Of a stretch of DNA of 64,000 nt, positions 8,122-55,720 are shown one piece after another (positions within the stretch are counted from its first letter, which is position 1; each line of letters begins with the position of its first letter). The stretch is from NCBI RefSeq assembly GCF_032118995.1, contig NC_092657.1:8495391-8559390 (forward strand), given 5' to 3'. This stretch comes from Asterias amurensis. Lineage: Eukaryota; Echinodermata; Asteroidea; Forcipulatida; Asteriidae. The position numbers and the translations under genes were made by a program. The notes under the pieces were generated by a model, which worked only from the letters and a program-made list of their open reading frames with translations, was not told the DNA's origin and did no database searches.

Positions 8122-11100
8122 TTAATCACTGTCACTGTAAACAATAACTAGTTCCCTGTACTCATCTGAGACTTCATCTTCGTCGCTCTTACTATCACTT
8201 GAAGAACTATCGCATAAAACATCCGGCATTTTGACTGGCATTTGACTGTTTGACTATAGATGTGGTCATCCTGCTGCTCCTCTGAAGATGTTCCTTTGAC
8301 TTGTGATTGAAACTGAAGTAGTTCTTCTCATATTTTGTCCTGTACTTCATTTGGTACATCTCTCAAGGGGACTTCAGACCCTTTTGGCCCTGAATAAAGG
8401 CCATCCTTTATACTTTGCTCAACAAAATTTGTTGGTGAAGCACAATGGTCTCCTTTACAGGAACATGTACGCGCACAGTTGTCACAGCAGTTGTGTGCCT
8501 TGTTACATGGAGCTGTCTGATGTTGCCCAGGAAACGCCGTATGAATTATGTCTCTCCTGCAGGAATCGGTGTTCAAGAATGATTTCATCTCTTCCTTGAT
8601 GGGGACGCCACTTGCAGATGGATATTTAACCAGGATAGAGTAACTCCGTTGACCATCCCTCCCAGCTCTACCACTTAGCTGAACGTAATCATCGATATCA
8701 GTTGGCGAAGACCCTTAATGTCGACACCTAATCCAAACGCAATTGTTGCAAATAGAACCCTAACAGTTCCATTTGGATCAGAAAAGCTCTTCAGAATGTC
8801 TTCTTGAACTTCTGGTTGTGTGTTCGTGTGGTACATATTGAAATACACATGACCATCTGCAGGGACGTGGCACTTAAACATGGAATAGAGCTCGCTGCAG
8901 GTTTTTCTACTTTGGCAGTAGACTATCACCCGTCCAGTGTTAACACCCTTTTCAGAAATTTTCAGACACAACCAACCCAACACATCTTTAGGTTGTATAC
9001 TTTTGGTTTTTAGGACGGTATGTTTCATGTTGTGGAGTATTGGGCTGGTGTGAATTAGGAAAACATTTTTCAATGACAGACTGTCTGCTACAGCTTTCCT
9101 GACAGTACTGCTGGCTGTGGCAGTCATCGCAATCAATGGCGTATCCATTTGGAGGCGACTCCGCAGTTGTCCTATGTTCCCATATAACTTTCGGAATGCT
9201 GCTGTTTTCCCTGCAGATTGGCCCCTGTAAAATACCAGAAAACGTGCAAGTTAGATACATTCACAGACAGGAGGATTTTATATTTAGTGGATCGTAGTTT
9301 GTAGTAGATTCAAATGTATTGTAATAATCCAATTGTGCATTGCAATATTTAATTGAAGAATTCATTTCATTGTTGTAGTCCACCTCACATAAACAATGCA
9401 ATGTGCAATGTTAAAACTTTGAAACTGAATGTTAACCTTGTCCTTCGGGCCATTAAATTTGTTCATTGCTAGGCTTGTCCCGAGGCTCTTTACTTTATGC
9501 AAGCACCCACTTTGAACTAACTACTTCGCATGAACAACAATACTGGCACGGTACCAGAGATACCGTAACCGTGGGTGTCAAAGAATAATTTTTCAACCTC
9601 GTATACGAGCCAAAACAGGCTTAAGCTTCAATGTACCAACAATATTTCAACCCCATCTCATACTGTACATATCAAGTCTTGCAGTACTGTGCCAGTATTT
9701 TATGTAGTTCGTCGCCCAATATTTGATTCATGCAAATTTTACGACAAATCGAGTTCAAACTTCCACAGACAGGTCAGAGACTTTGAGTATTATTATTTAG
9801 TATAGACTACATTATATATATTATACTTAGGGGTCTTGTCAAAACTCATCCTGGACAGACCATAGGACGAGGCTCGTCCGATGTCACATTTTTGTCGGAC
9901 GGGCCACAGGATGGGAGTTCATACGGAATAAGGTTCCACACGATGAAATGTGTATTCCCGTCCGATACACAGTGCCCAAGGCACCCCACTGAGCGCTCTG
10001 CGGTTTCACTGGCTCATTAAACACTAGATAAACAAACCTGGGGTTTGCGGTTAGGGGCAAGTCTGGACCATCTGGACTGACTGTTTGGAGGTCACTGTAG
10101 GAAAGATTATACTAGCATAGCTCATGTAAACCGTTAACAGTGTTTTATTCTCCATTCCTGAATTGTATAGGTTTATACAAATTAAACTAATGAAAAATAT
10201 AAATATCAAAAGAAAACTTTTTGCAATATTGGTGAAATTATCCACCATCTTGAAAAAAAAACACGGATGCTAATCATGGCCACCCGTTCATACACAGGAA
10301 ATTCCCTTCAAAGATTTCTACCTTTCAAAAATGGACCATAACACTCCAAACTTGTTGGGTCGTGGGGTGATGTTTCCAAGGTTATTTATGGTCTAATATA
10401 CTTTCAGGATAATTTCTATTCAATCACGATACATCAAAAGGGGTACATCATTGTAAAGGTGCTGTTTAATAACATGGATTTCTCAAATAATTAGATTTTA
10501 ATCTAAAGATTTTAAAAGGGGTTGTCCCATTAGATAATTAAATAAGCTTTTATTGACGCAGAAGAACAACATAGACAATAAAGACAATTGCAATTTTGTC
10601 CACAGACTGAAATAAAAACGTTGAAACCCATCCTGTTAAAAAGTTACAAATTGAAATGCACAGAGAGCTTATATGACCAATTTGTCTGTAGTAAATACTC
10701 AAGGTCATTGAAGCCCAGTGTGAAACCGCAAACTGGCCCTCGGAGACCTCCTGCTTGTTTTCCAGTAGATAGCAATCTAAACACTCTGCGGTTTGTAAAC
10801 AAATGATCCCTTGTGAAGGCCAGTCACTGCGAGCTCGTCCTATAGTCCGTCCGATAAAGTTATCACTACAAGGGAATTGAACATGGGACAGAAACCTGGT
10901 CCTGGACGGGTGCCCGTCCGTTGGCTGTCCAGGATGAGTTTTGACAAGGTCCCTTAGTAAATATATTAAAGTTAGTAAATAGTAGTAGGGCCCTATTGTC
11001 TGTTTATACTATTTAAAGCACTGTGTGGTCTATATAATAATGAATGGAATGGTGCTATATGCTTTGGACTTACCATTTAGTAACACAATGGCTTTCGTCG

Positions 11101-11588
11101 ATGAACAAGCCACACACCCGACTGTACACAGATTGAAGTTGCAGCAACTCAGTACCTTTGACACTCAGCAAAGCCTCCGGGCTGGCAAACAATACAGAGT
11201 ATTTTCCCTGACCAGCACATTCTAAAACCTCATCTGAAATCTCTGCAATTGCAATGGCAGCTTCCAGACCAATCGCCTGACATCGTTCCAATTGGTTCAT
11301 GGCTAAGGACTTCAAGGGGACAACAACTATGGCCAGAGATTTTGGAATGTTCGAATCGTCTGCGACAACATTGTTGCCTTGAAGGAAGTCCCAACACATT
11401 GGCGCTGCTTGGAATACAACACTCTTTCCAAAGCCAGTAGGGAGGCAAATAAATACGTCGTGCCCGCGAAGATAGGCATCAAGAGCTTCAGATTGTTGTT
11501 TCTTGAGAGCATTCAAGCCCAGGCGACTGCAGGCATGTTCTTTAGCTTGAAATATATCGGTCTCACTTAGTTTCACGGACGCCGCCAT
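8122..11588 (-). pseudogene. RecQ-type DNA helicase, two exons, decayed
   Basis: Exon 1 (11588-11074) starts MAASVKLSE in a good ATCATGG context. It has the Walker A box LPTGFGKS, motif Ia VVVPLKSLAMNQ, and the DEAH-type box FIDESHCVTKW split by a GTAAGT donor. Exon 2 begins at 9224 (GQSAGKTAAFRKLYGN) and continues with IAMTATAS, VIVYCQSRKTC and VLFATIAFGLGVD. About 20 bases are missing just after GLRQ, which shifts the frame. Motif VI (SGRAGRDGQR) and a cysteine-rich C-terminal zinc region (CRRDIIHTAFPGQ, CNKAHNCCDNC) then follow in another frame. An in-frame stop comes near 8326, and an acidic tail ends SDSD at 8122. The family unwinds 3'-5' DNA in repair. This copy looks like one of the multi-copy, probably transposon-linked RecQ genes rather than a housekeeping orthologue. 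Confidence 0.75.
9830..10953. mobile_element. Non-autonomous Harbinger-like DNA transposon
   Basis: The terminal inverted repeats GGGGTCTTGTCAAAACTCAT and its partner at 10934-10953 match over 29 bp with two differences. Both ends are flanked by TTA (9827-9829 and 10954-10956). A TWA duplication with GGG...CCC ends is typical of PIF/Harbinger. The 1,124-bp body has further internal inverted CGTCCGAT blocks and no transposase. It lies within the intron of the RecQ-like gene, on no particular strand. Confidence 0.8.
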
Positions 11589-11889
11589 GATGATTGTGAT
11601 ATGTGTACACACTACTACTAACTATACGTCGTAACACAGCAACGCGTGACCTTTGACTCCATCAGTTTGAATAGTCACCTTCAACCCGTCACGTGATATG
11701 AATATTGCATGCATTACGAGTCATTTGCATAGTCTGGCCCCGCCTTCGATTTGCAGATAGCCAAGACCATGGTGAGATCATGGTGAGAGAGATCCGAAAA
11801 ATCAGAGAAACAGAGCGCCCGCTAGCATTCGGTCATTACAAAGCGTGTACAGGTTTTGCCGTGCATAGATCGGAACGTTGATTGTGTGT

Positions 11890-13132: not shown

Positions 13133-16100
13133 TGGTGGCAGCGGTGATCTCAACCTAAAACATGTCAACAACTCCACAACAAGCTTGCCAGCCACAGGTC
13201 ACAACTCAACTCCCACTTCCGACTGAATTCGATGGCGGAAACGGACCTTAACAAAGCGAACTGTGGCCAAAATGGATCAGACGTTTCGAGCAGTATCGTG
13301 TTGCTTCGGGTCTCACAAAGAAACCGGACCACGAACAGGTTAGCACTCTTATGTATGCTATGGGAGATTGTGCCGATGACATATTAATAACTTTAAGGAT
13401 CTCGGAAGACACCGCAGAATTTGATGAAGTGGTACAAGCATTGAACAAACAACTATGAAGGTCGCCGAAATATTATTGTGGAGAGGGCTCGCTTCAATAA
13501 ACGCAAGCAACAGCCAGGGGAACCGATGGATGTATTTATTCAAGACCAATACAGGCTGGCAGACCACTGTGAGTATGCTGAACTCAAAGATAGCCTAATC
13601 AGAGACAGGATTGTCGTTGGTGTCACCGATGATAAACTTTCTGATAATCTCCAATCCAAATCTGACCTCACTCTTGGCAGAGCTGTACAGTTTTGCCGGC
13701 AAGCTGAGTCTCGTATACAGAACCGAGATATTGTGAGAGGCGAAACACAACAGACACAAATTGATCACCTCCGGTCCACTGCATCCTATCGCGAGAAAAA
13801 GGGAACGAGTACAGCTGGAAAATCAAAAAGTGCACAGTCTAATCCACATCCCAGCCAGGACACTGCATGTCAGTGGTGTGGGAAAGAACGCCACAAGCGC
13901 TCAAATTGCCCAGCCAAAGAAACAATTTGTGCTATTTGTAAAAAACAGGGACATTACAAGGCTGTTTGCCGCAGTCCAATGTACACATCGACAAGAGTAC
14001 ATGAAGTGCAGGATCACGAATATGACTATGAAGTGCAAGATCACGAATATAATGATGATTTGCCATTTCTTGGTGAAATCTCCAGTAATAAGGATTACTG
14101 GAATGCCGACATATCTGTCAACGGACACAACACACGCTTCAAGTTGGACACAGGAGCGACAGTTTCCGTTGTTAGCGACAATGAGCCATGGTTATCTGGA
14201 CTAACACTTATCTCGACAAGCCAATCCCTTCGCGGGCCATTTGGTATAAGCTCAGCGCCAGAAATTTTTCAACGCACTATGTCATTAATCCTCGAGGGAC
14301 TTGATGAAGTCATCTGTCAAATGGATGAAGTCCTCATCCACAGTACAAATCAGACAGAACACGATAGTCGGGTTTGAGCAACCCTACAACGTCTACAGGA
14401 CGCGGGACTGACACTTAATGACAAATGCGAGTTTTCAAAAGGAACAATCAAGTTCCTTGGCCACATTGTCAATTCATCTGGACTTAGTGTGGACACACGC
14501 AAGACAACAGTAATCTCTCAGTTCCCAGTACCTACTAACATTACAGAGCTACAACGCTTAATGGGTATGGTAAATCAGTTGGGAAAATTCATTCCATCCA
14601 TTGCTGAGTTCAACGAACCACTGAGACAACTACTACGGAAAGACAATTGCTGGTATTGGGGCGATATGCAACAGAAGTCGTTCCAGTGAATCAAAGACAT
14701 GCTAGTTTCGTCTGAAATACTCGCTCACTATGACCCAAACCGCCAAACGATCATCGCAGCCGATGCCTCTCAAGCAGGTATCGGTGCAGTTCTGCTAAAA
14801 ATACAGGATGATGGCAAGCGCCGCCCTATTTGCTACGCATCGCGATCCCTGAGTGACACGGAAAAACGATATGCTGTCATAGAAAAGGAAGCGTTGGCAA
14901 CAACTGTGGCATGTGAGAAATTCAACGACTACGTTGTGGGATTACACTTCACAGTAGAGACCGATCATAAGCCTTTGGTCCCTCTACTAAGTTCTACCGA
15001 ACTCTCCAAAATGCCTCCATGCATTCTACGGTTTCGCCTCAGATTAATGCGGTTCAACCCGATAGTCATGTATGTGCCTGGCAAGCATCAACTCACAGCA
15101 GACGCACTTTCACGAGCTCCAGTCGGTATGCCAGGAAATTCCGTCATCGAACTCATAGCAGAGATCGACAATTTCACATCGTCTGTGTTACATGCATTGC
15201 CTGCTACTTCGCTACGCCTCCGTGACATCGGCCAAGCCCAGCAAGCAGATGAAGAATGCTCGCAAATCAGACAGTACTGTTCACAAGGCTGGCCTACATA
15301 CATGCCCCACTCACCGTTGCTTCGACAATATTTGGAGAGCAGAAACCATCTCGCAATCATCGATGATTTGCTCCTGTACGACGAACGCATTGTGATCCCC
15401 AGAAGAATGCGACTCGAAATCCTCGACTGCATACATCAGGGACACCTTGGCATCACAAAGTGTTGAGCACGTTCACAGACATCAGTATGGTGGCCTGGAC
15501 TGTCAAAAAGTATTGAGCAACTGGTCACAAATTGCACCATATGTGCAAGGGAACGTCCCGAAATCAAGGAACTGCTTATGTCAGCCTCATTTCCATTGCG
15601 CCCGTGGGAAAGTTAGGTACAGATCTTTTTCAGCACCAAGGGAAAGTTTATCTTATAGTGATCGACTACTACTCCAGGTGGATGGAAATCAAACAGCTCA
15701 ATCAACAAAAATCACAGAGCGTGATTAATGTACTGAAACAGATATTTGCAGTCCACAGGATTTCCGACAATGGCCCCCAATTCAGTGCTGAGACTTTTCA
15801 ACAGTTTGCAGCAATCTATGGATTTACACACGTGACCAGCTCGCCAAGGTATCCACAGGCTAATGGTGAGGCAGAGAGAGCCGTTCGCACTGCAAAAGCT
15901 CTTCTGAAGAAGAACTCTGACCCATATCTTGCTCTCCTCACTTATAGATCAACCCCACTACAAAAGTGAGCTACTGATGGGAAGCAATTGAGAACACAAC
16001 TTCCTGTCCTACCAATGACACTCGCGCCAAGTGTGCCAAATCACGCTAAGGTACGCGGAAAGGAAGACGCCTATCGATTGGCCCAAGAGAACTCTTTCGA

Positions 16101-25017: not shown

Positions 25018-26504
25018 GAATAAAGCTCTGTTATAACGGAAAGAATCAGCTCTTGTGAGCTATCCTGATGTCCTGTGTGTGCGATGCACCTGCTCGTTGT
25101 CTCGCCCAGATTTTTACACAATTTAATGGTTTTTATGGATGTCCAACTTGCTTGGCACGAGAAAACTCGTCCAAAACACTTAAAGGCACAATGACACATA
25201 CGTACCCATTCGACAACTAAAATATGGCGTGTGGACATGGGCCATTGACGAATCACCCTGATACTGTATCCCATGCAATAGAGGCAGAGACGACTGGGAA
25301 AACAGTATTTGGTGTTAAGGGAGCCACATGGCTACTGAAATGCCCCATGTTTGATGTCATTACAGGGGTGTCTGTGGACTATATGCACTGTGTATGTATT
25401 TGCGTTACAAAAAAATTAATACGTTTGTGGACTAATACCGAGTACAAAAGATGTCCTTGTTATGTTGGATCATCTAAAGAAGAAATAGATAAGCGTCTTC
25501 TTCTTATGACCCCAACCAACCGAATCTCACGATTGCCTCGAACAATAAGTGATCTCCCTAACTGGAAAGCTACAGAATACAGGATTTATGGAATATTACC
25601 TGCATCGTATTTAAACCACTTGGGCTGTTTGGTTCAAGCTGTGTTTATTTTGCTTGAGACATCAATTAGTGCTGATAAATTGAAAGTTGCTCATGAGTCC
25701 ATTATTAGGTTTTGTGCAATGTTTAGTGAACTGTATAATGAATGTTTTGAATCAAGTAATGTTCATGCATTGTTGCATTTATCATTAAAGGTCAGAGACC
25801 TTGGTCCACTCTGGCCACACTCTTGTGTTTTTTTTTCAAAGATCTTAATAAAGATCTCAGAATTTTATTTCACGGTACACAGAATGTTGCTCAACAAATC
25901 ATTCAGGCAGTTTCTGTTCATCAAAAGATACCTGAAATGGTTAATCAACTTTGTGAAAGATCGAAGGTTCTTGCATTCTATGAACAAATGTACAGCTATC
26001 ACAGAATTAAAAGTGTATTAACTGAGGTATGTTTTGGCATTCATGCTATTGGCACTTTGAAACGCTGCACTGTGAAAAAAGAAGTGTATGATAAAATTTT
26101 GGACATGTTCAGCTTTGTCGGGGACTTAATAATATACAAGTTTGAGAGGTTAATGTTAAACAAAACTGTCATTCATTCAAAAGTTTACAAAGCTGTATCT
26201 CGTCGAAATAGTTATACAGTATTTTTCGATTTTGAAAATAGTAAATTAATTGGTCCCATTCAGTACTTTTTACAGTGCAATCTAAATGCATGTATTACAT
26301 ATGTTGCAGTAATTGATGTTCTGGACATACACACCTCTCTTAAACTGTCGGCAGATCATTAAACTGCTGTAACAACAAATAAAAGGCAGTTAGTTGTACC
26401 AGTGAATTCTATCCAGGAAATGTGTGTCTGTTTGCCGTTCACCTTTGACGGAACACAGTTGATTGCCAGATATACGAATGTGTTTGAACATGAACAAGTT
26501 TGAT
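25018..26504 (+). pseudogene. Second TNP2-like transposase, decayed
   Basis: After an acceptor at 25018, the frame gives CDAPARCLAQIFTQFNGFYG, CPTCLARE and TYPF, then an in-frame stop. It resumes with FGVKGATWL, GVSVDYMHCVCICVTKKLIR (the D-x-M-H block), PTNRISRLPR, NWKATEYR, NVHALLHLSLKVRDLGPLW and FHGTQNVAQQI. The frame changes at a run of T near 25830. A further in-frame stop lies at 26360-26362, ahead of a final stretch RQLVVPVNSIQEMC to a stop at about 26504. The block order is that of the large animal TNP2-like family, a different subfamily from the copy at 1-1192. It is clearly inactive, with at least three breaks. Confidence 0.7.
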
Positions 26505-33760: not shown

Positions 33761-36700
33761 AATTGGCGACGAGGATAATTGGTTCATAATGGCTGCCCTG
33801 ATCGGGAAAATCAATGAATTTCGAGAGGGAACGGAGGACTGGACACACTACTTTGAAAGGTTGGAATTTTATTTCGTAGCGAATGATGTCACCACATCGG
33901 CCAAGAAACAAGCCGTTGTTTTAACTGTTATTGGCCCTGAATCATACAAACTTCTTCGAAGTCTGGTCTCTCCTGACAAACCTGGTGACAAACCTTACGA
34001 TGAGTTCATAAAAATAATGACTAAACATCACAACCCTGTACTGTCTGAAATAGTGCAACAGCCGTGAAGTTTAACAGCCGTTTCCGTGAGGAAGGAGAGT
34101 CCATTGCTCAATATGTTGCTGCACTTCGTTCTATTGCAAACTTTTGCAATTATGGTACCTCCTTAAATGATATGCTACGTGATAGGCTTGTCTGCGGTCT
34201 ACGGAATGACCGCATCCAACAAAAACTACTGACTGAGAAGAAACTTTCTCTCGAAAAGGCTTTGTCCATAGCACAAAATTTTGAAACGGCAACAAAGAAC
34301 GTCAAAGACATGAAAGAAATGCAGGTGGCACAACCAAACAGCAATGAAAATAGCAATACAGTGATGAACAAGGTGTTTCATGATAACTCCACACCAAATC
34401 AAGTGAGTTTGAATAAGCAGAGGTGCAAAACTCAACCCTGTTATCGTTGTGGGAAAGACAACCACTCATCAGGTAAGTGTCGGTTTCGATACAATTCATG
34501 TTTTAAGTGCCAGAAGAAAGGCCATATTGCCAGTGTGTGTCGCAGTTCTGATAAAGGGGACCAGGCTTCACATGTAAAGAACATGAATGCTGTACCTACG
34601 ACCAATGATCATGACACACATGAAGTCGAGCAACAACATGACAATCCTGTCTACTCACTCTTTACTTGCAGTCGACCTGGAATGAAACCAATACGAATCA
34701 ATTTATTGGTAAACAAGGACTTTGTGATGGAGGTAGACACAGGGCCATCATTATCACTGGTGTCGGAGCACGTTTTCAAGTGTGGGTGGCCTAACAAACA
34801 ACTAAGTCCATCAGAGGTCAACCTAAGAACATACACGGGTGAACTAGTCACGACGCTTGGCCAATTCACTGTAGAAGTTGTGCATAATTCGCAAGCCTTT
34901 GAACTGTCATTGCTAGTGGTGAAAGGAAATGGCCCAAGCCTCCTTGGTCGAAATTGGCCGGATAACATTAAGTTGGATTGGGAACAAATCCATGTGCTTT
35001 ACGGTAGCAACATGGAGGATGTTCTAGACAGACATGCTGCGGTTTTTAAAGATGAGTTGGGCACGTTGAAAGGTGCGACTGCCAAGATCTATGTTGACAA
35101 GCAGGTTCAACCGCGCTTTTGCAAAGCACGATCGGTTCCATATGCCATGCGAGAGTTAGTAGGGAAAGAACTTGACCGCCTTGTCACTGCTGGAATATTA
35201 GAACCGGTTGAGTTCTCAGAGTGGGCTGCCCCCATCGTGCCTGTAATGAAGGCAGATATATCATCTGTAAGAATCTGCGGTGATTACAAACTAACAGTGA
35301 ATCAGGTATCCAAATTGGATAAGTATCCGATTCCGAAAATTGAAGATTTGATCGCATCCCTGGCTGGAGGACAGAAATTCACGAAGCTGGACCTCTCGCA
35401 AGCTTACCAGCAACTGATATTGGATGAGGAATCACGCAACTATGTGGTGATTAACACTCACAAGGGATTATTTCGTTATACCCGCCTGCCTTTTGGAATC
35501 GCCTCAGCTCCAGCCATTTTTCAGCGCACTATGGAGAATATCCTTCAAGGAATTCCACATGTGATCCTCTACTTGGATGACATTTTGATTTCTGGGTCAG
35601 ATGACCAGTCTCATATTTCAACGCTCGCCACTGTGTTGTCGCGCTTGGAACAGGCAGGACTTACGGCTCAAGTTGAGTAAATGTACTTTCATGGCCCCTT
35701 CTGTGGTGTATCTTGGGCATACCATTGACGCCCAGGGTTTGCACCCTACAGCTGACAAAGTCGAAGCAATTCGCAATGCACCAGCACCTACGAATGTCAC
35801 CGAACTGAGGGCCTACCTAGGGCTGCTCACTTACTATGGCAAATTCCTGCCTCAGCTTTCTACCACGCTAGCTGCTTTGTAACGATTATTGCGCAAGGAT
35901 GTCCAATGGAGATGGGGTACAGAAGAAAAGAGCGCTTTCCAAGCTTCGAAGGAGTTACTTCTCTCTTCGCAGTTATTGGTACATTTCGACCCTGGGAAGG
36001 ACATCGTAGTATCATGTGACGCGTCCCAATACTGAATTGGTGCAGTCCTTGCTCATCGCATGCCCGACGGCTCCGAAAAGCCCATTGGCTTTGCTTCACG
36101 CACCCTCGCTCCAGCAGAGAAAAAGTATGCCCAAATCAAAGGAGGGTTTGGCATGTGTTTTTGGAGTGACACGATTTCATTCATATATCTATGGACGCCA
36201 CTTCACGCTAGTGACAGATCACAAACCTTTGCTCAGTTTGTTCAACGAGGAACGTGCTGTTCCACCCCAAGCTTCCGCACGCATACAGAGATGGGCACTG
36301 ACTTTAGCTACTTATGAATATACGCTTGTGTTTAAGCCCATGGAAGCACATGCAAACGCTGACGCCCTGAGCCGCTTACCCCTGCAAGCATCAACTCCTG
36401 CAGTCCCTCAGCCGGCTGAAACTGTGTTGCTCATGGAGAACATTGCAGCATCTCCTCTCTCCGCCACACATACTCGTGCATGGACTAGATGTGATCCACT
36501 GCTCTCTCAAGTGCTCCCATTGGTGGAGAAAGGATGGACATCTGACGCGAATTTGGGCGACAATTTTAAACCCTATACTTTGCGCAGGACAGAGCTCTCA
36601 GTACAAGAAGGATGTTTGTTGTGGGGGAGTCGTGTTATCGTTCCTATGCAAGGCCGTAAACGTGTGCTAAGGTCACTACACGAAGGACACCCAGGAATGG

Positions 36701-38028
36701 CTAGAATGAAAAGCCTTGCTAGAGGATTTGCTTGGTGGCCCAAAATGGATGCTGACATTGAAGATGAAGTGAAGGCATGCCATAATTGCCAACAGACCCA
36801 ACCTATGCCACCGAAAAATGAACTTCATCCTTGGAGATGGCCCAATAGACCTTGGTCCCGCCTTCATATTGATTACGCAGGGCCATTCATGGGTAAGATG
36901 TTTTTGATCGTGATTGATGCCCATTCGAAATGGATGGAAGTGTTTCCACTGAACAATGCTACATCACAGCAAACCATAGAGAAACTTCGACAAGCATTTG
37001 CTTGCCATGGTTTGCCAGACAAACTAGTTTCTGACAACGGCACACCATTCACAAGCGTAGAGTTCAGGGAATTTATGACGAAGAATGGTATTCTTCATAT
37101 TTGCACAACACCCTATCACCCTTCATCAAATGGACTTGCGGAGAGAGCGGTACGCACATTCAAAAACGCAATGAAACGCATGGACCAAGGAACGGTAGAA
37201 ACCAAGGTGTCACGTTTCCTATTCAAATATAGAATCACGCCGCATAGCTCCACTGGAGTATCACCAGCAGAGTGACTGATGGGGAGACGCTTGCATTCCC
37301 ATTTGGATCAGCTCCGCCCAGATGTGTCCAAAACTGTGGACAAACACTAAATGACACAGAAATATCATCATGACAGTCACGCCAAGGCTCGATCATTCGC
37401 GATTGGAGATACAGTATGGGTGCGAAACTACACCAAAACTGGTTACAATTGGCTACCAGGCATCGTGAGCGATTATGCAGGGCCAGTGTCATACAGGATC
37501 CGTTTGCAGGAGAATGATTCTGTAATAAGGCGTCATGCTGACCAAATTCGTGGAGTTGATAAGATGCCTCAACAACACCCTGTAGGGAAAGACAGGGAGC
37601 AAGTGCCGGATGAGGTTGATGTCACCATTGACAATGAAATTGAAGACCCAAACCAAGAACAACCTCAGCAGATTGACGGTCAGTATCATCCACCGTTGGA
37701 GACCGAACAACCCGTAGGTCGTAACCCGGTCCGCAACCACAATGCCCCAAATCGCTACGGATTTTCGGCCACATAAACTGTTGAGTTTCACAGGATGTCG
37801 CTGCACATTGTTGAGGCAGAATAATCCTCAGTGCATTATTATTTCGGGACAGGGTAGTCCACCCCTGTGCTCGATGTTTTTTATTGTTCATTGCAGTTGA
37901 AGTTTGTTAGAGTTCTTGTTAATCCATGGATCCCCCTAATGCAGTGATTGGGACTAAATAACTTGACTTTCTTTAAAAACTTGACTGCATTATTATTATT
38001 GTTGATGTTTAACATTAGGGTGGAGGAG

Positions 38029-38977: not shown

Positions 38978-39252
38978 CGTGTGGCATACAGGATTTCTTA
39001 GAATCATCATTTCCTGAAACAAGTACACATCACCGCTGTTTGCAGCGCGACAAGCGGTTGCGCGCACGCGCGGATATTTTAGTTCTATCTAGCGCCCTCT
39101 CGTGGTTAGATTTGGTTATGAGTAAACACGATCGCGTTTTGTCGTAGGCCAGCCAACCGGATGATGTCATTCGACCTCGTATTTAAAGCAAGACGGTCAC
39201 ATGAATATTTAACAAAGGTCATAGTTCGATAGATTTTAAAGCTGGGGAGACA

Positions 39253-39362
39253 ATGGTATCAGGCATGGCTTCGTTTGACAAAGTCCGGGCTGCACAGCTG
39301 ATCCTCAAACTACATCAAAAATATGTCACGATCAGCCAGCTTTTGATGGATCGAGGAACAAG
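39253..39362 (+). CDS. Possible first exon of an unknown gene
   Basis: Starts MVSGMASFDKVRAAQ and continues LILKLHQKYVTISQLLMDRG before a GTAAAT donor. The upstream 200 bp are rich in CpG, fitting a promoter. No downstream exon could be assigned. Confidence 0.3.
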
Positions 39363-40106
39363 GTAAATATTGGTACCTTTGTTGGCGTTTTTAAGGGTCG
39401 ATCATGAGTTTTCTTGGTGACAAAATAAGTTTAGGAGGGAAGACTGACTCATTGTGAACACGTACATGGTACTTAGCACTGAGCAAACCTCAATGGAGCC
39501 TCGTGGCCAGCCATTTAGAAACGGGATTTTTACGCGACACCGTGGTTGCGTTGTCGCCATTGTTAGTGAATTTTCACAGTGTGCTTGGGTTTCAAACGTG
39601 TACAATGGTGTAATAGTGGTCCCATGGAGGTCGCTTGAAGTTTAAATGTTTTGAGCTATTATTTGGGGTTCCATTATTAATGATTGTTAATAATTTTTAA
39701 TAAATAATAAAAAACATTATAAAATTATATTTACTACTATACTAAATTAGTAATAGGGCCTATTCCTAGCTTTCCCCCACAGATTATTATTATTTTTTTT
39801 TATTTAGTTCACTTTATTATTATGTCATTAATTTTCCTAATTAAGCCATGAGTATAAATTTTAAAAACAGCTCAATATTATAGGCCCACACACATGACAC
39901 AAGCATTTAAATAACTCATCACACCACCTGATGAGTAGTAATGGTACAAACAATTCATGTCAAGTCACATTGTTCTGACAAATATATACTTTAATTGATC
40001 TTGTCTTGTAGTACATTCAGACTTGCCTACTTTTTTCAGATATTTTTTCCCTTGGATTTTGTTGAGGTGTTTATTTAATGCTTATTGCTATACTACCTTC
40101 TTGATT

Positions 40107-43100
40107 CTAGGACTTGTCAGGTTGTAAGCGGCGCTTACGTGGTCGTGACTTTGGACGGAGACTTGTTATGGATGGGTTTACGCACAGATGATGTTCCCGC
40201 ATGACGCAGAGGAGTTTGTGAAGTTTGGGGTTCAGTTTTGAAGTGTTTTTGGCACCGTTGAATCGTCTGTTTAGGATGTTGAATGAGCGTGCATGGACTC
40301 TCCCCCCTGCTCACCAAGCAGCCCCAAACCATGCTTCGTGCTGCGAATGAACGGGCAGACATGTTCCTCAAGCATATGCATTTTGGGGGGAATGGTCTTG
40401 GTGGGGAACGTGGTGCGGAAGAAGTCCATGAAGAGCTTGATGCTTTCGTCTAAGAGAGAAAAAAGTAAGTTAAACACTCACATGTAAAAGTGTTCTCATT
40501 TGTATCTTAAGAATGCTGTGCAACCTAAAATGTTAGTGTTATTTTACATTGTTAATTTTGTTTTACCTTTGCATTCAATGACATGTTAAATATTGAACAA
40601 GAAACTCACCAAGGTCTGTGATATCATTATCACTGAAGTATTCCACCTTGTTGTACTTGTTGTGACAGTTGGAGAACAAGGAAAATACAGTAGAGAAGTT
40701 GTGAACAATGGTACTTGCTTTGCTCAATTTGGCTGGACAAAGTTTTCCCACTTCCACAATTACTGCTTCTGTTATTTTTTTGATGTTCATTTCCTGTGTG
40801 ATTGAAAAAACAATATAGTACACAAAATTAAATGGCAAGAAGAAAGTATAAGTTTTGTTCTCTATTTTTCATTGTTGTTTAATATATTACCTTGAGACAT
40901 TTGTGTAGGTGGTTTCCGACAAAAGTGTTCGAGTAGTAGGCCTGGCGTCTAACTTTTATGTCTTGTAGAGTCAGGTCTAGCCTCTTCAACAGGGGGTTGT
41001 GATGATCTTGTAGATTGTCCACTTTTGTGTTTCCAAGAATTTCCTTTAATAATAAGATAAAGACAATGCTAAATTTACACATTTTAACTACTTGTGATAT
41101 TTTTCGTTAATGAAGATAATTTTACAGTGTGAGGACCACATCCTAGTAACGACTGGATTGGTGGGCGGGCCACTGTTGTTTATGAACCAAACCAAAGGGA
41201 CAGTTAATTAAATTGACTGTTACTTCCTTAATTTTCAGCTTTTACCTGTCTACTTAGTTCGTCGGTGAGGCTGCTCATCTGGGCAGTGACATCGGCCACA
41301 ACTTCTGATGCATCAACACCATCATTGAGCAGAGCAATTACTGCAAGCTGCTCTTGAAGGACTTCCATCTCAACACTGATGTTACTTGCTCTTAGCTTGG
41401 CCGTGTGGACCTCAGACAGCTGGGCAATGTGCAGAGGGAATGGTCCTTCTCCAAAGTCAGTTGCACCTGCACTTGAAGTTGCAAGCTCTCCCGCAATTTC
41501 TTCTCCAAGATTCCTGCATTCTGCCTCAAACATGGTGTACAGCTTGAACCAAATACCCAAGCTGATATGTAGAGTAGGTGGGCATACCTGTGAAAATAAA
41601 GTTGTTTTTGTACAGTATTATTTTAAACGTTTAAATCAAATGTCTGTTCGCAGAAACAGGTTGCTATATTGCTAAATGCATTGATTTTCTTAAAGACAGA
41701 CGATGCCTATTATCTGTACAGAGAAATAAATGGTCTACCACATTCATTGCATTTTTTTAAATTTGATATTAATACATTGGTGATGGGGATAGAAAAGAAT
41801 GGCTTGTCAATCGAGTTATTGTAGTTCTTTGCTTTCTTAATTTGTCCTCCAGAAGCCAGAAATTGCTCATGATCATGATGCAGGCTCTCAAGTGATCTGA
41901 TGTTACAAGGATGGCGAACTGCCTTGTCGACTGCCATCTGAGCACTTGTTATGTTGCACCATATGCAGGGATGCCGACCTGAGAAGACAAAGGTACCAAA
42001 CTGTCAAATTTTAAGAGAAAAATCTCACATTATGTAAGGTGGGATCAATCTTACCTTAAAAGAATATTTTGTTGTTACATGGGTTTAGGTTTAGTTAAAG
42101 TGAAGTAACATAACTTACCACTTGCACCAGATATTCCCATCATTCTGCACAAAAATTCATAATCGCCAAACAGATACACCATGAGCTTCTTTCCCCTGGG
42201 AATTATGTAAAATAAGTTCATGTTTAAGTAGGGTTTGAAACTTTGCATGGTTGAAATATGATATAGAAAGGTTCTGAAAAGAACCATTGGTTTAAACTCG
42301 ACGCTTCGATCAGTATGCTCTGATCGTCTTCTGATCATCTTCTCCAGAAGACGATCAGAGCATACTGATCGAAACGTCGAGTTTAAACCAATGGTTCGTT
42401 TCAGAACCACCCCAACTCATTACAGATAGTCATTACATGGTGTTACCGCAAACCTTTCTATATAAGTTCATGTTTATTACTTCCTCCGTCCAAAAGATAT
42501 TTAAGTTAGGAGGCCAAATATTTGATACAACATACCTCCATGTCATCCTCGTTATTGCTTCTATTTCGGTCTTGTACCTATCCAGGGCCATGTGGAGATT
42601 CACTGATGTGTCTGTGGCTTCAAATGCACACAGGACAATTGTGTTGTTCTTGGAGTTGGGGGCTTCTGTATTTTCTATCTCCAGCATAAATTTGAAACTC
42701 CCTCCACCTTTGTCTCCTCCAAGTTTGAGCCAAACTTCATCTTTCGGCTGACCCTGATGCCAGTACAACCTTTCAGATCTGCAGGGAAGGTAATTTCTTT
42801 TAATTTCTACAAATAAAAGATAATAAACACAAGGGCCGCTAGATTTTCTTGTTAGTTGTTTTTTGTTGTTATTATTATTATTCTTGAAAACACTACCTGT
42901 GATATTCCTCCAGCAGATCGATTATGTACTTTTGGAGGTCTGCTATGAAGACACAAGCAGCCGGTTTAGTAACAAGGCCAGTCTGCTCGCTACACATGAA
43001 CGGTAGCCTATCCCCCTCCAGAACATCCTGCCCAACAGAGGCCTTTCCGAGCTTCCTACTTTCCTGCTCATTCGCCATCACAATCTTATACTGACGCAGC

Positions 43101-44832
43101 CACCTATTTAAACAGCATGAAAAAAAAACAAGGTATTATTTATGTATTCGAAAAAACACACAACTTCATAGACCCCTGTACTGTTGATGTCCCGAACTTG
43201 CTATTGAATTGATTACCAACGTGTCTCTGCACAGCTGTCAGAAATCCAGTACTACACCGTAGTAGAGCAAATGTTGACATCATCAGTAGAGACAGCCTAC
43301 TTTGTTGGTACTTCATTACTCCACCTTCTTATACCTCACTTTTGTAGTATAAATATACAAATTATATGAACACAATGTAAGATGAGAGATGAGAAATACA
43401 AATCTTACAACTTGAGCTCTCTTAGTCCAGCCCATGAAAGCCCTAAGTCTGCTTTTAGTGCTAGTTCGTTCAATGCAGGAATGTGTATCCTCAGTTGCAG
43501 CTTTCCTAGGAGATCTTGAAGGGATTTTCTGGAGGCTGTCTTGATCAGATGTCCTAGTTGTACATCAGACTGTCCAGCGCTTATGTCCGACAGATGAGCC
43601 TTTAGGTATTTGGTGCGACGCTGGATGGTTCCTTTGTGGACATCATTGCTTGGCTTGTGAACAGTGGGAACACGCTGAACACACAGGGCCTAGTATTATT
43701 TAGAAAACAAAAACAGGTTGTGGTTGTTGAAACATGTTTTTCACATAAAGGAAACTGCCAAAGAATTGAAACGATAAGGGCAACAAATCATTTTGCTTTT
43801 TTATTGAAGTAGACAGTGAAGATTTCTTTCTTTCAGAGTTAGCGTTAGCGTTATTTAAATAAGTTGTTTATAAGATGCTCAAAATTTGTCAATGAAATTT
43901 ATCACAAAGCAATACTTACTGCCCCCTTAGTTGCTAGCCGCACTGTTCCTCCCGAGTTGACCATACATTTTTTCAGAAGGTGGGATGTCAGTTGCTGTCC
44001 CAGTTTCCCAAGTGGTGCAACATTACCGAGTAGGATGTCTTTATATGCCTCTTCATCTACTGGTATTGACGAGTCAGGATTAGAGCAAGTGTGTTCATGT
44101 GCAGTTCTTAACCAGCTACTCATCTTACACATTGTGCATTTAACCCTTACATTTTGTAGCACATTCATGAAATATTGTTTAGGGGGGTTAATTTCTTTAA
44201 GACTGAAATTGCTTTTGCATACAGTGCATTTAATAGTGCAAGATGATGTTGTGACAAAAATACTCTGCAGGCACGATAAGCAAAAAACGTGTTCACAAGT
44301 AGTCTCGACTGGTCTGGATAACAAGTTGTTGCACAACTTGCAAATAAACAGTGCATCATCAGTAGAGAAGTTCAAATTGGGGTATGGAGTGGTTGTTTCC
44401 GACAACTCATGAAACCTAGCCAACACCTCTTCTTTGTTGTTCTCTTCAGTCTCTTCTAGGTCATCCAGTCTTCGGTACTTTGTTTTGGCTGGCCGACCAC
44501 CTTTGTTACACACCACTCTATTGCAAACACTGCATTCACCTTTAAGTGGATGAACACTCCAGTCATTGGGCATTACCCGTGATGTAGGTAGAAATAAATT
44601 AGAATAACACAGATGGCAGATAAATAGAGGATGGCGAAGACTTTCATCACTAGTCATGTCAATGTGGTACTTCACTTTAATTTTATCTGCATACTGAGAG
44701 CAGGACTTTAAAGGTTTCTTCGTATTTTTGTTCTTGAATGATTGCACCCGGTTGCCACAAACTCTGCATAATTTTTTCAAATTGTTGATGTGATCTTCCA
44801 TTGTTGAGATTACAGGCTTTATGGAGTTTGAT
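40107..44832 (-). CDS. RAG1-N-terminus-like transposase gene (N-RAG-TP type), ten exons
   Basis: Minus-strand exons: 44832-43920, 43689-43409, 43103-42897, 42778-42536, 42195-42119, 41978-41776, 41587-41246, 41043-40891, 40793-40610 and 40449-40107. All nine junctions keep phase, giving about 970 residues from the ATG at 44801. Exon 4 has WLKLGGDKGGGSFKF, PNSKNNT and FEATDTSVNLHMALDRYK. Exon 5 has YLFGDYEFLCRMMGISGASG and runs into RHPCIWC in exon 6. Exon 7 has CPPTLHISLGIW. Exon 10 has IPPKMHMLEEHVCPF and GLGLLGEQGGESMH. The D of GGDKGGG, the D of FGDYEF and the E of EQGGE are plausible catalytic DDE residues (inference). The core is not the vertebrate RAG1 core. The frame shifts once, just after ESMH at about 40310; the continuation ends RPRKRRLQPDKS at 40107. 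It may be an almost intact transposon gene or a domesticated one. Confidence 0.75.
42260..42466. mobile_element. Long-hairpin MITE in intron of the RAG1-like gene
   Basis: GAACCATTGGTTTAAACTCG to CGATCAGTATGCTCTGATCG forms arms of about 53 bp (42281-42397), with the inverted copy differing at only one or two bases. Outer AGAAAGGTT/AACCTTTCT ends extend the structure. It lies between exons 4 and 5 and has no coding capacity. Confidence 0.8.
43920..44832 (-). CDS. Exon 1 of the RAG1-like gene: zinc region and RING finger
   Basis: The exon begins after an ATTTTCAG acceptor. MEDHINNLKKLCRVCGNR (ATG at 44801) parallels the RAG1 N-terminal H-L-K-x-L-C-R-V-C-G-N-R block. It is followed by FICHLCYSNLF and WSVHPLKGECSVC. 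A second cysteine cluster at about residues 152-215 is a RING finger: FICKLCNNLLSRPVETTCEH, VFCLSCLQ, then CTVC, matching the RAG1 RING in spacing and in the P-V-x-x-x-C-x-H-x-F-C core. A following C-x2-C with H-x-H-x-C (CTMCKMSSWLRTAHEHTC) corresponds to the zinc finger after the RAG1 RING. In RAG1 this region is a ubiquitin ligase. The exon ends GTVRLATKGA at a GTAAGT donor. Confidence 0.8.
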
Positions 44833-44849
44833 CTGAAAATATTTTGGTA

Positions 44850-47800
44850 AAATTTAAACAGTTAATATTCAAAGAATTGTTTAATTATCTTAAACACATT
44901 TAGTTATTAACGCCAGTTTATTGTATCTGATGACTTGTTTGCCTTAAAGTAGTAAAATAGTTTTACGTAGAGTCTTTTTGTCTTGGTGTTTAAAAAAATA
45001 TGTAACAAACTTGCAGTAGAGCTGTTTTTTTAGTAAATAAATTGTGCATGTTTTCGGCCATTACTTGTTCAAAATGTAAATTTTATAACTAGATGTGTTG
45101 CTTTGCAAATTAAGATATACTTCATTGTAACTTAAACATCCAGTTGACTCCTTTAAACATATGAAGTCTGTAGGTCTACTAGAAGAAAAAAAACACAAAT
45201 TGAGTTTAGGAATTGCTCGCTTCCCCATCCTGCCTTTTTTTTTTATAAACAAATAATAACTTATTATTTTTAGGCCTACAGTACCAACATTGGTGTGTTT
45301 CATCTGATGACTTGTTAGCCTTTTAAAGTTTAATGTGAATTAAAATATGAGAAACCACTATCCGTTTCCTGGTGAACATAGTCTAAATCTAATATAAACC
45401 AGCTAACCCCAATTTCATATTTTTAGAAATCAAAGTTTTCCCCTCAAAGTCTGAACGCACAGTGAGCAGTTTTTTTTTAATACAAACAAACACTACATTA
45501 TATGGCCAGGCTATTGTGTACAAACGTATGGGCAACGCGCAACGGAATCCCCAGAAATCTTGTTTGCCGTAGTAAAACCTGCGGGGGAATCCCACCATTT
45601 TAAGACAAAGTACGGGGTTTGCTCATATAAAAAGTATCAATTAGGTAAAGGAAGGGCTAACTTATTATATCTTACTTTCCACGTATAAAGAAAAACTCAT
45701 CTTCATGTAGGAAATCCGCCTCCAAATCTGTGAAATTTCAGCCTGCGCTCGTCTCGTTTGGACACAAACTTCGGCACAGATTTCCCCGAATTTCGCGGGG
45801 TTCCGTCATCGCTCAGATGTTTCTTTACTACATAAGTTGCAGACGATAAAGTTCTTCGAGATCCTATTGGTTAATTTCCTTTTTAATATGAATATTCAGT
45901 ATGTAAATGGCGTTTTTTATCAATGAAGCCAAGGCGAAAATACGCTGGAGGTCACGCCTAATGAATATGCATTCTCCAATGACCTCGCTGATATTTCGCG
46001 CATGCGCGCAAACCGCGTGTCGCTCACAGGGCTTATACAGCGGTGACATGGGAATACTTTTGATTTTACAACAGCTTTCAATTCACAGGATAGACTGACA
46101 CGTGCACAGATTGCTCACAGAAAGCGTGAGATAGGAAGGTACCGTCAGCAAAACCATGCACCCTCTCATTTATATGTGCTGCCGCGACCCAAACATCAGA
46201 CTGAGGATGGGAATCATACCCAAGGTCACGGTGGAAGAAAGACCCCATCAGCTAACCCATGTACATGTATCCTCTCATCGCATCTATCGAGGAGAATGGT
46301 TGCTGCAAGAAAGCTTTGTGTTGAAGAAAACTTTCAGTGCTTCTGTCGGACACCAAGAAGTCATATGAAGTAGTACATGTGTTTTAAACTTCCTGGACTG
46401 GGTACCGTCGAATGGGTTAACATTGAGCGACTGATGGACATAAGGATGAAAAGGTATATGCAGGGAGTAAGATCAGAATGAGAACACGAAGGTAAACTGA
46501 AGAGGCAGATCTCGACCTTGACAACGGCTGACGGCCTGGAGTTTGCAAGGCGAATTTGAAAATTTTAAATTTCAAGGGTGCGAGGCTACAGTGCAGGGTA
46601 TCCGTACAATTGAGAGATTGATCCACATCTTGAAATATCGGAATTGGAATTGCCGAGGTTATGGCTACAAGGTTCCTCTCAGCAAGACAAACCTAGTGCA
46701 GGCAGCGGGATTCCTGACCAAGGCAAGTGGAGAGTGGATCTTATTCTGTTGTTTGCATAAGCGAGTTTTATAGTATCTAGGACTCTTTTGTCTTAATCAT
46801 AACATTTTGACCTTCGTGGTTTATTTTGTCAAAATTTCTTAATGAATGGAGCGCACAGAAACTTTTCTAATTAAAATTGAATATTTTCGCGGATTTGGTT
46901 TAATAAATTTTTGAATTATCAATTATGTATGTATATTTTTAACCTATAGATAATGCTAGCAATGTGTAATCAACGTTTTGTATTTTCTATTAAAGACTAT
47001 TTGAGACCTAGTTTACTAACTGGTTAAAATGTTAATAAGAATATTTCACTCCCGTTCCTATAGTGATTTCGACCCGCAGAGACATTCTCAATGAAATTGA
47101 CTTTGGAGTCACGGTTCGCCCTGTAAGAGAGACGGACGATTGGCGGGAATTCAAAGTCAACTTCACTGAGTTCTCCATCCAGTCCCTTCAACCGAACCGA
47201 CCCAGAATATGGACATCTGGACAGCCCCACCTCGCCCAACATGAGCAGTAAGCCAAATTGAAATAGTGTAAATTAATTAAAGTGTTAAACACTAGTTCCA
47301 AAAAAAAATGTTGTACTTGAAGAAGAGGACATCAAAACTCAGAAGTACTAAACTCTTTTGTCAAAGAAAAGCTTAAAGGTGGTTTCCAGGCATGCTTAGG
47401 TAAAGTTTTTATTTGCACACGCGCACGGACGTAAATTTTAAGCTAGAAAATAACGTGCGGTCACATCACGTTGGTCACGCCAGTCGCGTGGAGTACTAGT
47501 TTAACGTAGGCCCCTACTCCGAGTATGAAAGTAAGTTGTGCTTTTGGTTTTTGTATAAAACGTTTTGGAATGTCAATTGCTTGACGGCGACCTTGGTGTC
47601 CATTTCTCCGGCCAAAGAGGTCACCGTCATGGTGTGAAAGTTCACAGACTTATTTATAAAAAATGTTGTCACGTTGTGTGCAGTGGACATATTAACAATG
47701 CCTGTAGTGAACAAACATGACTTGGTTTGTAACTTCTGTGCGTTTTTTTTGTAAACTGATAATTTGACTCTGTCCAAACGATCTAACATTTTAACTTGAA

Positions 47801-51018: not shown

Positions 51019-51585
51019 TTAGCATTGGACAGCCCTATAAAATACATGATGTACTAACCTGTTGTTCCTGACAAGAGATTCGTATGTGGCCTGTTTTGCT
51101 CTATGAAGCACAACTTTGCTGGGTTTGTATTTGCGACAAGGGGTGTACATAGTGCTTTTTTGGACAAGCAGAGCTTCCAGGGTGTCTCTTTGTAAGTTTG
51201 GACGGAATGCTGTTTGATTTTTGCGCACTGTGCTAAATACACGCTCACAACCAGCATTTGAATGTGGGATGACAAGGATACCCATCATTACACCTGCCAA
51301 TTGTCTATATGTAGGCTTGCCCAATGACGAAGTTAATTTGCCAATTTTGAGCCACTGTGCATCTACCCTGCCCATATTCAATATCTCTGGTGTTAATTCC
51401 TCTACCTGGTATAAGGCAAACTCTTGTTCAAGTTGGGTTTCCAATGACCTGTCAGGAAGTAAACAGCTGAACCTGTGTATGAAGTATTCAACAGATTCAA
51501 ATGTCTTTTGTTCTCTTATAGTCCAGGAAATATACCGTTTGACCTCAAACAAATTGCAACAGTTTTTTTTTTTACCACAGTGCAT
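51019..51585 (-). pseudogene. hAT transposase C-terminal fragment
   Basis: The 188-codon frame contains VDAQWLKIGKL, YRQLAGVMMGILVIPHSNAG, CERVFSTVRKNQTAFRPNL and DTLEALLVQKS, the hAT dimerisation region found at the C-terminus of hAT-superfamily DNA transposases. The catalytic N-terminal two thirds are missing. The open part begins only about 20 bases from the left terminal repeat of the element at 51603-56629, so that insertion may have cut the hAT copy. The preserved stretch itself has no stops. Confidence 0.7.
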
Positions 51586-51602
51586 TTTATTGAGGTCTTT
51601 TT

Positions 51603-53504: not shown

Positions 53505-55082
53505 CTATGTCTTTGGATTGGTCTCTACATTTACTTTGCTCTCTGTAGTCATTCCATTTGCAATACTATGCAGATCTGATTCTGAGTTAAATGGGCTTCG
53601 TTCTCTGATGTAGTGTAGCAACTGTATTGTGTCTCTCACATCCCTAATCTGTCTTGCATATGATATATCTTTGTGTTGATCACTACTCTCATTCTTAACA
53701 CCTGTGAGGTCTTGCATTGCATCATTTACCAATGCCCTTGATGGCAGTGACAGGAGCCACACATTCCGCTGAGTTTCAGACATTCCAGTTCCTCTGGTTA
53801 GCCCTCCACTTGTCTTGATACTCCTCATTAAGACCTGCTCAATAATGAGATCTGTGGACAAACCTGCCCAGTAACGATCACTTCTCCTCACTACATCTTG
53901 GAACCTTCCGTGAACATCTGCGTGTGAATTTGGTAAATCATGCATCAATTGCCAGTATATATAGGCAGACTTGGCATAAAGCGAGTGTCCAGAAGCAGCA
54001 AAGTATGGTAGCATATCATGGACAGCCTGCAGATGCAGTTCCCAGTTTCCTGTTCTCTCAGCTTTCAGAAACATGCGCAGAATATCTATCATGTCCATGT
54101 ACTGTAGCCAGAGACGTGATGTACGTGTTGTCATGGCCTCCTTTGCTTCCTTCATCAGACTAAGAATCTTGTTAATTACATTTGATAAGCATACTTCATA
54201 TACTGATACAGTGTCAGACATCACACGTTCATAAATGTCTTGAGCTTCTGTCAAATCTGTTGCTCGTACATCTGCTTCGCCACAGGTTACATCAACTTCA
54301 AGAGACTGTTCCTCATCATTACTTGGCAGAGGCGCATTGTACAAGTCTGCAACCAGCATGGTATTGAGGGCAGCATCAACAAGGAGATGGCCAATACTTC
54401 CAAGGAAGCTCATTTCAGTGTGTAGTCCTCCAAGTCTCAAGACAATTTGCTTCATGTCACTGCCATTAGGCTGGTTTCGAATGATTGTCAGTGCCTTCCA
54501 CCATAGTGGCTGGTCAAAAGTCAAAACAGGAGTAACACTGTACTGTGCAGCATGGTCACAAACAAATCGCAGTGTTGAGTACACACAAGATGGGTCACTT
54601 GGATTCATGTCAATCATAGGAAGAAAAGATACTGATGAATGTCCTGGGTATTCACCCTTATTGACCATCTGCATCATGCCAGACCATGAAGGCCTTGGGG
54701 AACGAAGTAGTAATGATGTCTTCCAAAGCACATCAATGTTAATTGTTGGGTCTCTTGTTCTCAAATTCACCATGGGTTGGTACATCAGCTGTTGTACTGT
54801 ACGAGAGGCCTTAAAGTATTCTATGTTGATACGCCCAACAGCAGCAATATCTGCGGCAGTTACATTAACTTTTGGTATAGGCTTACAGGTCATTGTACCT
54901 GGTGTCTTTGTAGCTATTATACCCATTCCATGGAAGGTACCAAATCCATCAATTGTACAAATGTTATGGTCGACATTGTCGGCAACATACTGAATGTACT
55001 GGTCCTGAATATAACCAGGAATTTCTGTTCCTTGTGAAACTGCTGCACTTTTTTCATACTTTTTCACTTCAGGCGAAACCAA
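53505..55082 (-). CDS. Middle part of the TIR-element gene, open for 525 codons
   Basis: The longest uninterrupted coding stretch in the window. It has QYVADNVDHNICTIDGFGTF, RPSWSGMMQMV, FLPMIDMNPSDPSCVYSTL, TPVLTFDQPLWWKAL, IVLRLGGLHTEMSFLGSIGH and LVDAALNTML, a block order I recognise from a widespread, uncharacterised repetitive family. A helical region WLQYMDMIDILRMFLKAERT and NWELHLQAVHDMLPYFAASG follows. It lies between the N-terminal zinc region and the nuclease region. The upstream segment overlaps it in another frame near 55075, so one frame change separates them. Function unknown. Confidence 0.65.
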   Translation of the reverse strand: MVSPEVKKYEKSAAVSQGTEIPGYIQDQYIQYVADNVDHNICTIDGFGTFHGMGIIATKTPGTMTCKPIPKVNVTAADIAAVGRINIEYFKASRTVQQLMYQPMVNLRTRDPTINIDVLWKTSLLLRSPRPSWSGMMQMVNKGEYPGHSSVSFLPMIDMNPSDPSCVYSTLRFVCDHAAQYSVTPVLTFDQPLWWKALTIIRNQPNGSDMKQIVLRLGGLHTEMSFLGSIGHLLVDAALNTMLVADLYNAPLPSNDEEQSLEVDVTCGEADVRATDLTEAQDIYERVMSDTVSVYEVCLSNVINKILSLMKEAKEAMTTRTSRLWLQYMDMIDILRMFLKAERTGNWELHLQAVHDMLPYFAASGHSLYAKSAYIYWQLMHDLPNSHADVHGRFQDVVRRSDRYWAGLSTDLIIEQVLMRSIKTSGGLTRGTGMSETQRNVWLLSLPSRALVNDAMQDLTGVKNESSDQHKDISYARQIRDVRDTIQLLHYIRERSPFNSESDLHSIANGMTTESKVNVETNPKT

Positions 55083-55720
55083 GAGAGTGCACTGTGTCGA
55101 CTAGGAACCGAGATGAAAAATGATGATGCATCAGTATTCCAAGACCAAATTGGAGGGGAGCAATGAGGACCCTTGGCCTTATTGCTTGCATGATGGCGTG
55201 CCCAATGGATGCCAGCTTGATGTCTACATTTTTGCCAGCAAACATAGTCCTTAACAGCCTCTGAAGTGAATCTGGGATAAAATCAAGTGATGCAGTGGTA
55301 GAGGACATTTCTGCCGGACTTGGGTATGCATCAGCGGTGATATCCCGAAACTTGACATCACTGTGAATAAGTTTGGCAGCAGTCTCTATTATTCTCATTT
55401 TCTCCTTTTCCGGTGTCTCATTCTTTGGTTGCTTGTGAAATTCATACAGAATAGAATTTGCTGTGTTGCCAAATGTCACAACACCATGTTTTCCATTAAT
55501 TTCGGTTACAATGATTCTATCTCCGAAGTGTTCTAGTAGTTTCTTTTTCATGTACACCGCACTATAGGCCTCATGCCCTGTATCTTTTAGATAGTCTGTC
55601 ATTTTTGCTACTAGTTCACCTACTGTGGTTTGTTCATCATCATTTTCCTCCAGAAATTCTGCAACCTGTAAGAATGCTGTCATTCTCACCTCTTCTTTGG
55701 GTCTGCCTATTTTTATCTTT
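55069..55720 (-). CDS. N-terminal-middle part of the TIR-element gene
   Basis: The frame KKIKIGRPKEEVRMTAFLQV leads into AEFLEENDDEQTTVGELVAK and SAVYMKKKLLEHFGDRIIVT, a small helical domain. It continues through AYPSPAEMSSTTASLDFIPD and AIMQAIRPRVLIAPLQFGLG to FLVDTVHSLGF, where the frame changes into the next stretch. It lies directly downstream of the zinc-binding N-terminus. Function unknown. Confidence 0.55.

Follow-up and report, generated by a model that had tools for sequence, protein, structure and literature searches.

A probable Chapaev-group DNA transposon encoding a transposase with a RAG1-like zinc region and a RING finger in the sea star Asterias amurensis

We analysed a 64,000-nucleotide stretch of the Asterias amurensis genome (contig NC_092657.1, positions 8,495,391 to 8,559,390; hereafter the window) containing a gene that joins a RAG1-like N-terminus to a different transposase core. 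The gene lies on the minus strand, and ten exons were modelled within positions 40107-44832 of the 64 kb window (Table 1). Exon joints are predictions, picked by GT..AG splice consensus and agreeing phase. The reading frame comprises 916 codons up to the first stop, at 40273-40271. An initial reading of the DNA (hereafter the sequence-only reading) had proposed a ten-exon gene, and our model agrees, with one strand, GT..AG borders and consistent phases throughout. It had given 40107-44832 as the extent of the locus; the gene is found there, but the mobile element is probably wider, reaching from 39031 to 46045.

Exon 1 encodes a RAG1-N-terminus-like zinc region, for which we use the name ‘Chapa’ from passages of PMC4411706, followed by a RING finger and a further zinc finger. 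In a PDB search with exon 1 (without its last residue), 89 distinct sequences matched at E<=1; among the best 60, which were listed, RAG1 accounts for all of the top 13 (2.9e-8 to 1.9e-6) and UHRF1 comes next (2.6e-6). Alignments with two RAG1 PDB sequences cover residues 7-244 of exon 1, and the RAG1-like N-terminus is collinear over about 240 residues. The 143 residues preceding the RING gave five PDB matches at E<=10, of which the best three were RAG1 (0.0021, 0.79 and 0.79) and the other two were unrelated; these E values are for whole sequences, and the best single stretch reaches only 0.41. The Pfam family RAG1_imp_bd exceeded its 23.3-bit cut-off in two of the four queries that include this region (26.2 bits with 147 residues and 26.5 bits with 98 residues). 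Structure prediction of exon 1 without an alignment gave a mean predicted local distance difference test score (pLDDT) of 34 and was not usable.

The RING and the next finger together gave 76 PDB matches at E<=0.1. Among the best 60, which were listed, the highest-ranking was RAG1 (1.4e-7), then BRCA1 (2.1e-6) and TRIM31 (3.7e-6), both of which score above some RAG1 chains. The best TRAF match was TRAF2 (1.6e-4), over the RING only, while TRAF6 (0.0065) covers RING and finger. The alignment with 1rmd extends across the finger behind the RING; Pfam has no matching family for the 92 residues from residue 203 onward. Pfam zf-C3HC4 (PF00097, cut-off 21) matched the RING with 22.3 bits in a 294-residue query, 23.9 bits in a 148-residue query and 16.4 bits in the 916-residue query, and the only NCBIfam match was a weak one to rad18, covering the RING (E 0.0051). 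Because BRCA1 and TRIM31 score close to RAG1, the RING by itself is weakly diagnostic; the collinear set is strong evidence. A TRAF- or TRIM-type origin of the RING, which the sequence-only reading had named as an outcome that would speak against it, is disfavoured by these PDB scores: RAG1 is the best match, though only about 4 bits above BRCA1 and TRIM31. The alignment of exon 1 with RAG1 made in the sequence-only reading is upheld by the top 13 matches.

Downstream of exon 1, exons 2-4 match DUF1280 (E 4.6e-20), a family identified as Chapaev transposases that form one clade with RAG1 (PMC3985635). The motifs GGDKGGGSFK, FGDYEFLCRM and EQGGES are all present and hold the predicted Asp, Asp and Glu (DDE). 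The core is laid out as D479, D549, C568/C571, H882/H887 and E904 or E908; we infer that E908 rather than E904 is the catalytic Glu. Passages of PMC12730594 give, as a rule for the clade, a DDE triad with C(2)C and H(3-4)H between the second D and the E, and the core has this arrangement. It also keeps part of the RAG1 spacing. Eighteen residues separate D549 from C568, as they do D708 from C727 in mouse RAG1; C-x2-C and H-x4-H are common to both proteins, and the interval from H887 to E908 (20 residues) is close to that from H942 to E962 in mouse RAG1 (19 residues). The layout pattern was composed after the protein had been seen; among 20,000 residue shuffles, 132 produced its loose form and 8 produced the form with GD and H(3-4)H.

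The RAG1 core family PF12940 was absent from the Pfam lists at E<=10 for the 916-residue query. Nor did any PDB chain match the 622-residue core at E<=10, in a search whose HMMER filters drop most matches above about 0.1. By sequence, then, the core is not that of RAG1/Transib, in agreement with the sequence-only reading, and the contrary outcome of a known RAG1L/Transib core did not materialise in either search.

The sequence at 39031 and 46045 marks the probable ends of the element. CACCGCTGT and its reverse complement ACAGCGGTG occur once each in the window, at opposite element ends, and ACAT adjoins each of them on the outer side. The ends read CAC..GTG, and the duplication measures 4 bp. 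According to passages of PMC12730594, most ends in the clade are CA..TG, with 2-5-bp duplications; CA..TG terminal inverted repeats and a target duplication in this size range are found here, in one copy only. The CAC condition used in judging these ends reflects the known ends of the clade, which are mostly of this CA..TG type (PMC12730594). In 1000 first-order resamplings of both flanks, a CAC-started 9-bp inverted pair arose in 165, and such a pair with equal 4-bp flanks in 1.

The frame breaks in the last exon, directly after GEQGGESMHA and beside the predicted catalytic Glu. The open stretch beyond, in another frame, looks like the displaced C-terminus of the transposase. We take this stretch to resemble other Chapaev C-termini; a Pfam search of the 40107..40310 frame matched no family. 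The copy had been presented as complete, a description that the break in exon 10 and the tail down to 40107 in another frame do not allow: it is nearly complete yet disrupted, or else the exon 10 break is an assembly error. Unless a sequence error accounts for the break, this copy should not itself give rise to a transposase of full length.

We conclude that the locus is very probably a single, nearly complete, frame-broken cut-and-paste DNA transposon of the Chapaev group (CMC superfamily), whose transposase carries a RAG1-like Chapa zinc domain and a RING. It has the Chapaev-type core (DUF1280, 72.6 bits against a cut-off of 25), and it has the Chapa-then-RING order of Chapaev subgroups as judged by comparison with RAG1, not with named Chapaev proteins.

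Several observations weigh against this assignment. First, it was made from a profile and published descriptions. RAG1_imp_bd fell under its cut-off in the two longer queries (17.9 bits with 294 residues and 9.8 bits with 916 residues), and the spacing departs from that of RAG1 between the two Asp (69 residues versus 107) and from the second Asp to the Glu (358, to E908, versus 253). Second, the terminal repeats match exactly over a short 9 bp before gaps set in, and we looked for them with the gene already known. With the CAC condition dropped, a 9-bp pair with equal 4-bp flanks appeared in 98 of 1000 resamplings; the real flanks contain 35 9-mer matches, two of them with equal 4-bp flanks and one of those two CAC-started. 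Finally, mobility rests on one insertion, because the remainder of the window contains no second copy (blastn E<=1e-3, tblastn E<=1; a whole-window control recovered the element) and there are no relatives in the searched collections. In viral contigs, tblastn confirmed 0 of 1 pattern matches to the core and 0 of 7 to exon 1, and in genome contigs 0 of 56 to exon 1.

A Chapaev transposase gene domesticated by the host and now serving the animal would also be compatible with 916 stop-free codons across nine exons and part of the tenth, and with the single copy in the window. However, the terminal repeats and target duplication are still present, the frame is broken beside the predicted catalytic Glu and several transposon remains lie in the surroundings, and we consider domestication highly unlikely.

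The D-x18-CxxC and Hx4H layout shared with RAG1, together with the N-terminus, would suit a RAG1-like element (RAGL/ProtoRAG/Transib) whose core has diverged. Yet the element shows no RAG1/Transib catalytic core, since PF12940 is unlisted and the 622-residue core is without a PDB match, whereas the DUF1280 match is strong. The target duplication is 4 bp (ACAT), not the 5 bp given for Transib in passages of PMC8355894 and PMC4411706. Moreover, we noticed no RAG2-like frame when reading by eye the intervals that separate the gene from the ends (39031-40106 and 44830-46045; introns and antisense frames not searched), where the longest open frame is 92 residues. The chance that the element belongs with RAG1 in this sense is slighter still. 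As improbable is an artefact in which the exon model joins two unrelated neighbouring genes: the joints are predicted from splice consensus and phase, and the exon 6 donor is weak, but the ten exons share one frame, one strand and one pair of ends, and the same fusion has been published for Chapaev (PMC4411706).

The gene model, family matches, motif spacing, terminal repeats and duplication of this Chapaev-group element are anatomy, from which we infer activity. End binding by the transposase would involve the terminal repeats, which start with CAC, and the GC-rich blocks inside them. The enzyme's RNase H-like DDE core (D479, D549 and E908, with zinc pairs C568/C571 and H882/H887) would then excise the element by a presumed cleavage chemistry, and reinsertion with a 4-bp stagger would leave the ACAT duplication. 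By analogy with RAG1, the N-terminal zinc module and the RING have probable roles in dimerisation and ubiquitin ligation, the RING activity being putative.

The closest described system is that of Chapaevs with Chapa and RING. In passages of Kapitonov and Koonin 2015 (PMC4411706), Chapa is a truncated RAG1 N-terminal part in TransibSU, named after Chapaev, and Chapa followed by RING is reported from two Chapaev subgroups (citing Kapitonov and Jurka 2007). Our element shares with these the Chapa-like zinc domain, the RING and the Chapaev/DUF1280 core, and with the wider Chapaev clade the CA..TG-type ends and short target duplication (PMC12730594). We found no difference of kind from the Chapaevs with Chapa and RING; the last-exon frame break of this copy differs. 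Because such Chapaevs are already published, the element is a further copy of an established kind, its design known since 2015, and the sequence-only reading had valued that design too highly. Literature searches found no description of this particular element, which is no proof of absence. Kapitonov and Koonin 2015 also state that no other known transposable elements encode RING or Chapa. Contrary to this as regards RING, passages of PMC3630058 report RING fingers in fly Gypsy- and Pao-type retrotransposons, and we therefore did not use RING alone for classification.

Other systems resemble the element in part. In vertebrate RAG1, too, the N-terminal zinc region comes first, then the RING and then the next zinc finger; the element differs from it in a core unmatched by sequence, the presence of transposon ends and the lack of a noticed RAG2 partner. 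Echinoderm RAG1L and TransibSU carry the Chapa zinc region (passages of PMC4411706) and, unlike the element, have a Transib-type core and a RING reported missing. Passages of PMC7204232, PMC9885083 and PMC3124419 report the RING dimerisation domain as missing in echinoderm or echinoid RAG1L; another passage of PMC9885083 nevertheless mentions an N-terminal ZDD in one sea urchin RAG1L. N-RAG-TP of Aplysia, also a transposon, has a protein resembling the RAG1 N-terminus (PMC8355894, PMC2996935 and PMC13337447). Unlike the element, it is described in PMC8355894 as entirely RAG1 N-terminal-like sequence, a comparison by description only.

It is possible, though doubtful, that both halves descend together from one RING-bearing Chapaev/Transib ancestor without a late N-RAG-TP fusion, the RING being later lost in echinoderm RAG1L and kept in Chapaev. 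Common descent would fit because all three non-core modules of RAG1 (Chapa zinc region, RING and ZFA-like finger) are present in RAG1 order and the spacing between second Asp and zinc pair matches that of RAG1. With both of its probable ends and a target duplication, the element is well preserved and represents a group used to argue that the RAG1 non-core front existed on transposases outside vertebrates. It thus adds material on whether the RAG1 front arose by fusion or descent, a question that passages of PMC4411706 already draw from such Chapaevs.

Table 1. Positions of the element, its predicted gene and associated features in the window.
Feature	Position	Strand	Details
Whole element (probable extent)	39031..46045	- (transposase)	7,015 bp, terminal inverted repeat to terminal inverted repeat
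Probable left terminal inverted repeat	39031..39039	+	CACCGCTGT; then GCG-rich subterminal block to about 39075
Probable right terminal inverted repeat	46037..46045	-	Similar GCG-rich subterminal block from about 45995
Target-site duplication ACAT, left copy	39027..39030		
Target-site duplication ACAT, right copy	46046..46049		
Exon 1	43920..44801	-	Residues 1-294: Chapa/RAG1-like zinc region, RING, next zinc finger
RAG1-N-terminus-like (‘Chapa’) zinc region	44523..44768	-	C12-x2-C15 ... C62-x2-C65 ... H84-x5-C90-x2-C93
RING finger	44217..44342	-	Residues 154-195
Zinc finger behind RING	44085..44138	-	C222-x2-C225 ... H235/H237 ... C239; in RAG1 ZFA position
Exon 2	43409..43689	-	
Exon 3	42897..43103	-	
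Exon 4	42536..42778	-	First predicted catalytic Asp, D479 (GGDKGG, 42714-42712)
DUF1280 match, exons 2-4	42574..43506	-	Residues 356-525; PF06918, E 4.6e-20, 72.6 bits, cut-off 25
Exon 5	42119..42195	-	Second predicted catalytic Asp, D549 (FGDYEF, 42164-42162)
Exon 6	41776..41978	-	Zinc pair C568-x2-C571; weak donor AAT/GTATTA (slash marks the junction)
Exon 7	41246..41587	-	
Exon 8	40891..41043	-	
Exon 9	40610..40793	-	
Exon 10 to in-frame stop	40271..40449	-	Zinc pair H882-x4-H887; predicted catalytic Glu E908 (or E904)
Open stretch in another frame	40107..40310	-	RSFNILNRRFNG..., basic tail; frame broken within first part
Foldback insertion, intron 4	42212..42476		Between 15-bp direct repeats ATAAGTTCATGTTTA at 42212-42226 and 42462-42476

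Two further features lie within the element. The foldback in intron 4 has 64-nt arms that are 97% complementary, with 11 nt between them. We rejected it as part of the element ends; it is a separate insertion that was not in the original element. A 15-bp duplication is longer than usual for a DNA transposon. Just within the left end, a short open frame on the plus strand (39205-39366, MVSGMASFDKVRAAQLILKLHQKYVTISQLLMDRGTR) reaches a possible splice donor and may represent a second, small gene belonging to the element.

A Pfam search that took in 16 of the 23 long open reading frames of the window revealed no clear host gene among those 16, and Rfam gave 0 matches on the window at gathering scores. 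Retrotransposon remains with reverse transcriptase, RNase H and integrase occupy 34049-37275 on the plus strand, about 1.8 kb from the left end of the element; we take them to be Gypsy-like. A second such retrotransposon lies at 13445-15969 on the plus strand, with a strong RNase H match and weak reverse transcriptase and protease matches; its open frame at 15517-15969 is integrase-like by eye only. Decayed plus-strand frames at 1-1192 and 25221-26362 presumably derive from other CMC (EnSpm-like) transposases, judging by their motifs. The two are weakly similar to each other (E 0.001 and 0.009 in single comparisons), and 344-1192 has a weak Pfam DUF4218 match under the cut-off (E 0.017). Helicase pieces, RecQ-like by eye, span 8675-11621 on the minus strand (DEAD, 4.5e-16, at 11070-11621; Helicase_C, 3.6e-10, at 8675-9250). 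DUF6589 was matched at 4528-4980 on the plus strand (E 2.8e-11), with a C2H2 finger just ahead, and under the cut-off at 53505-55100 on the minus strand (E 0.005). A hAT dimerisation region lies at 51019-51600 on the minus strand (E 1.5e-6).

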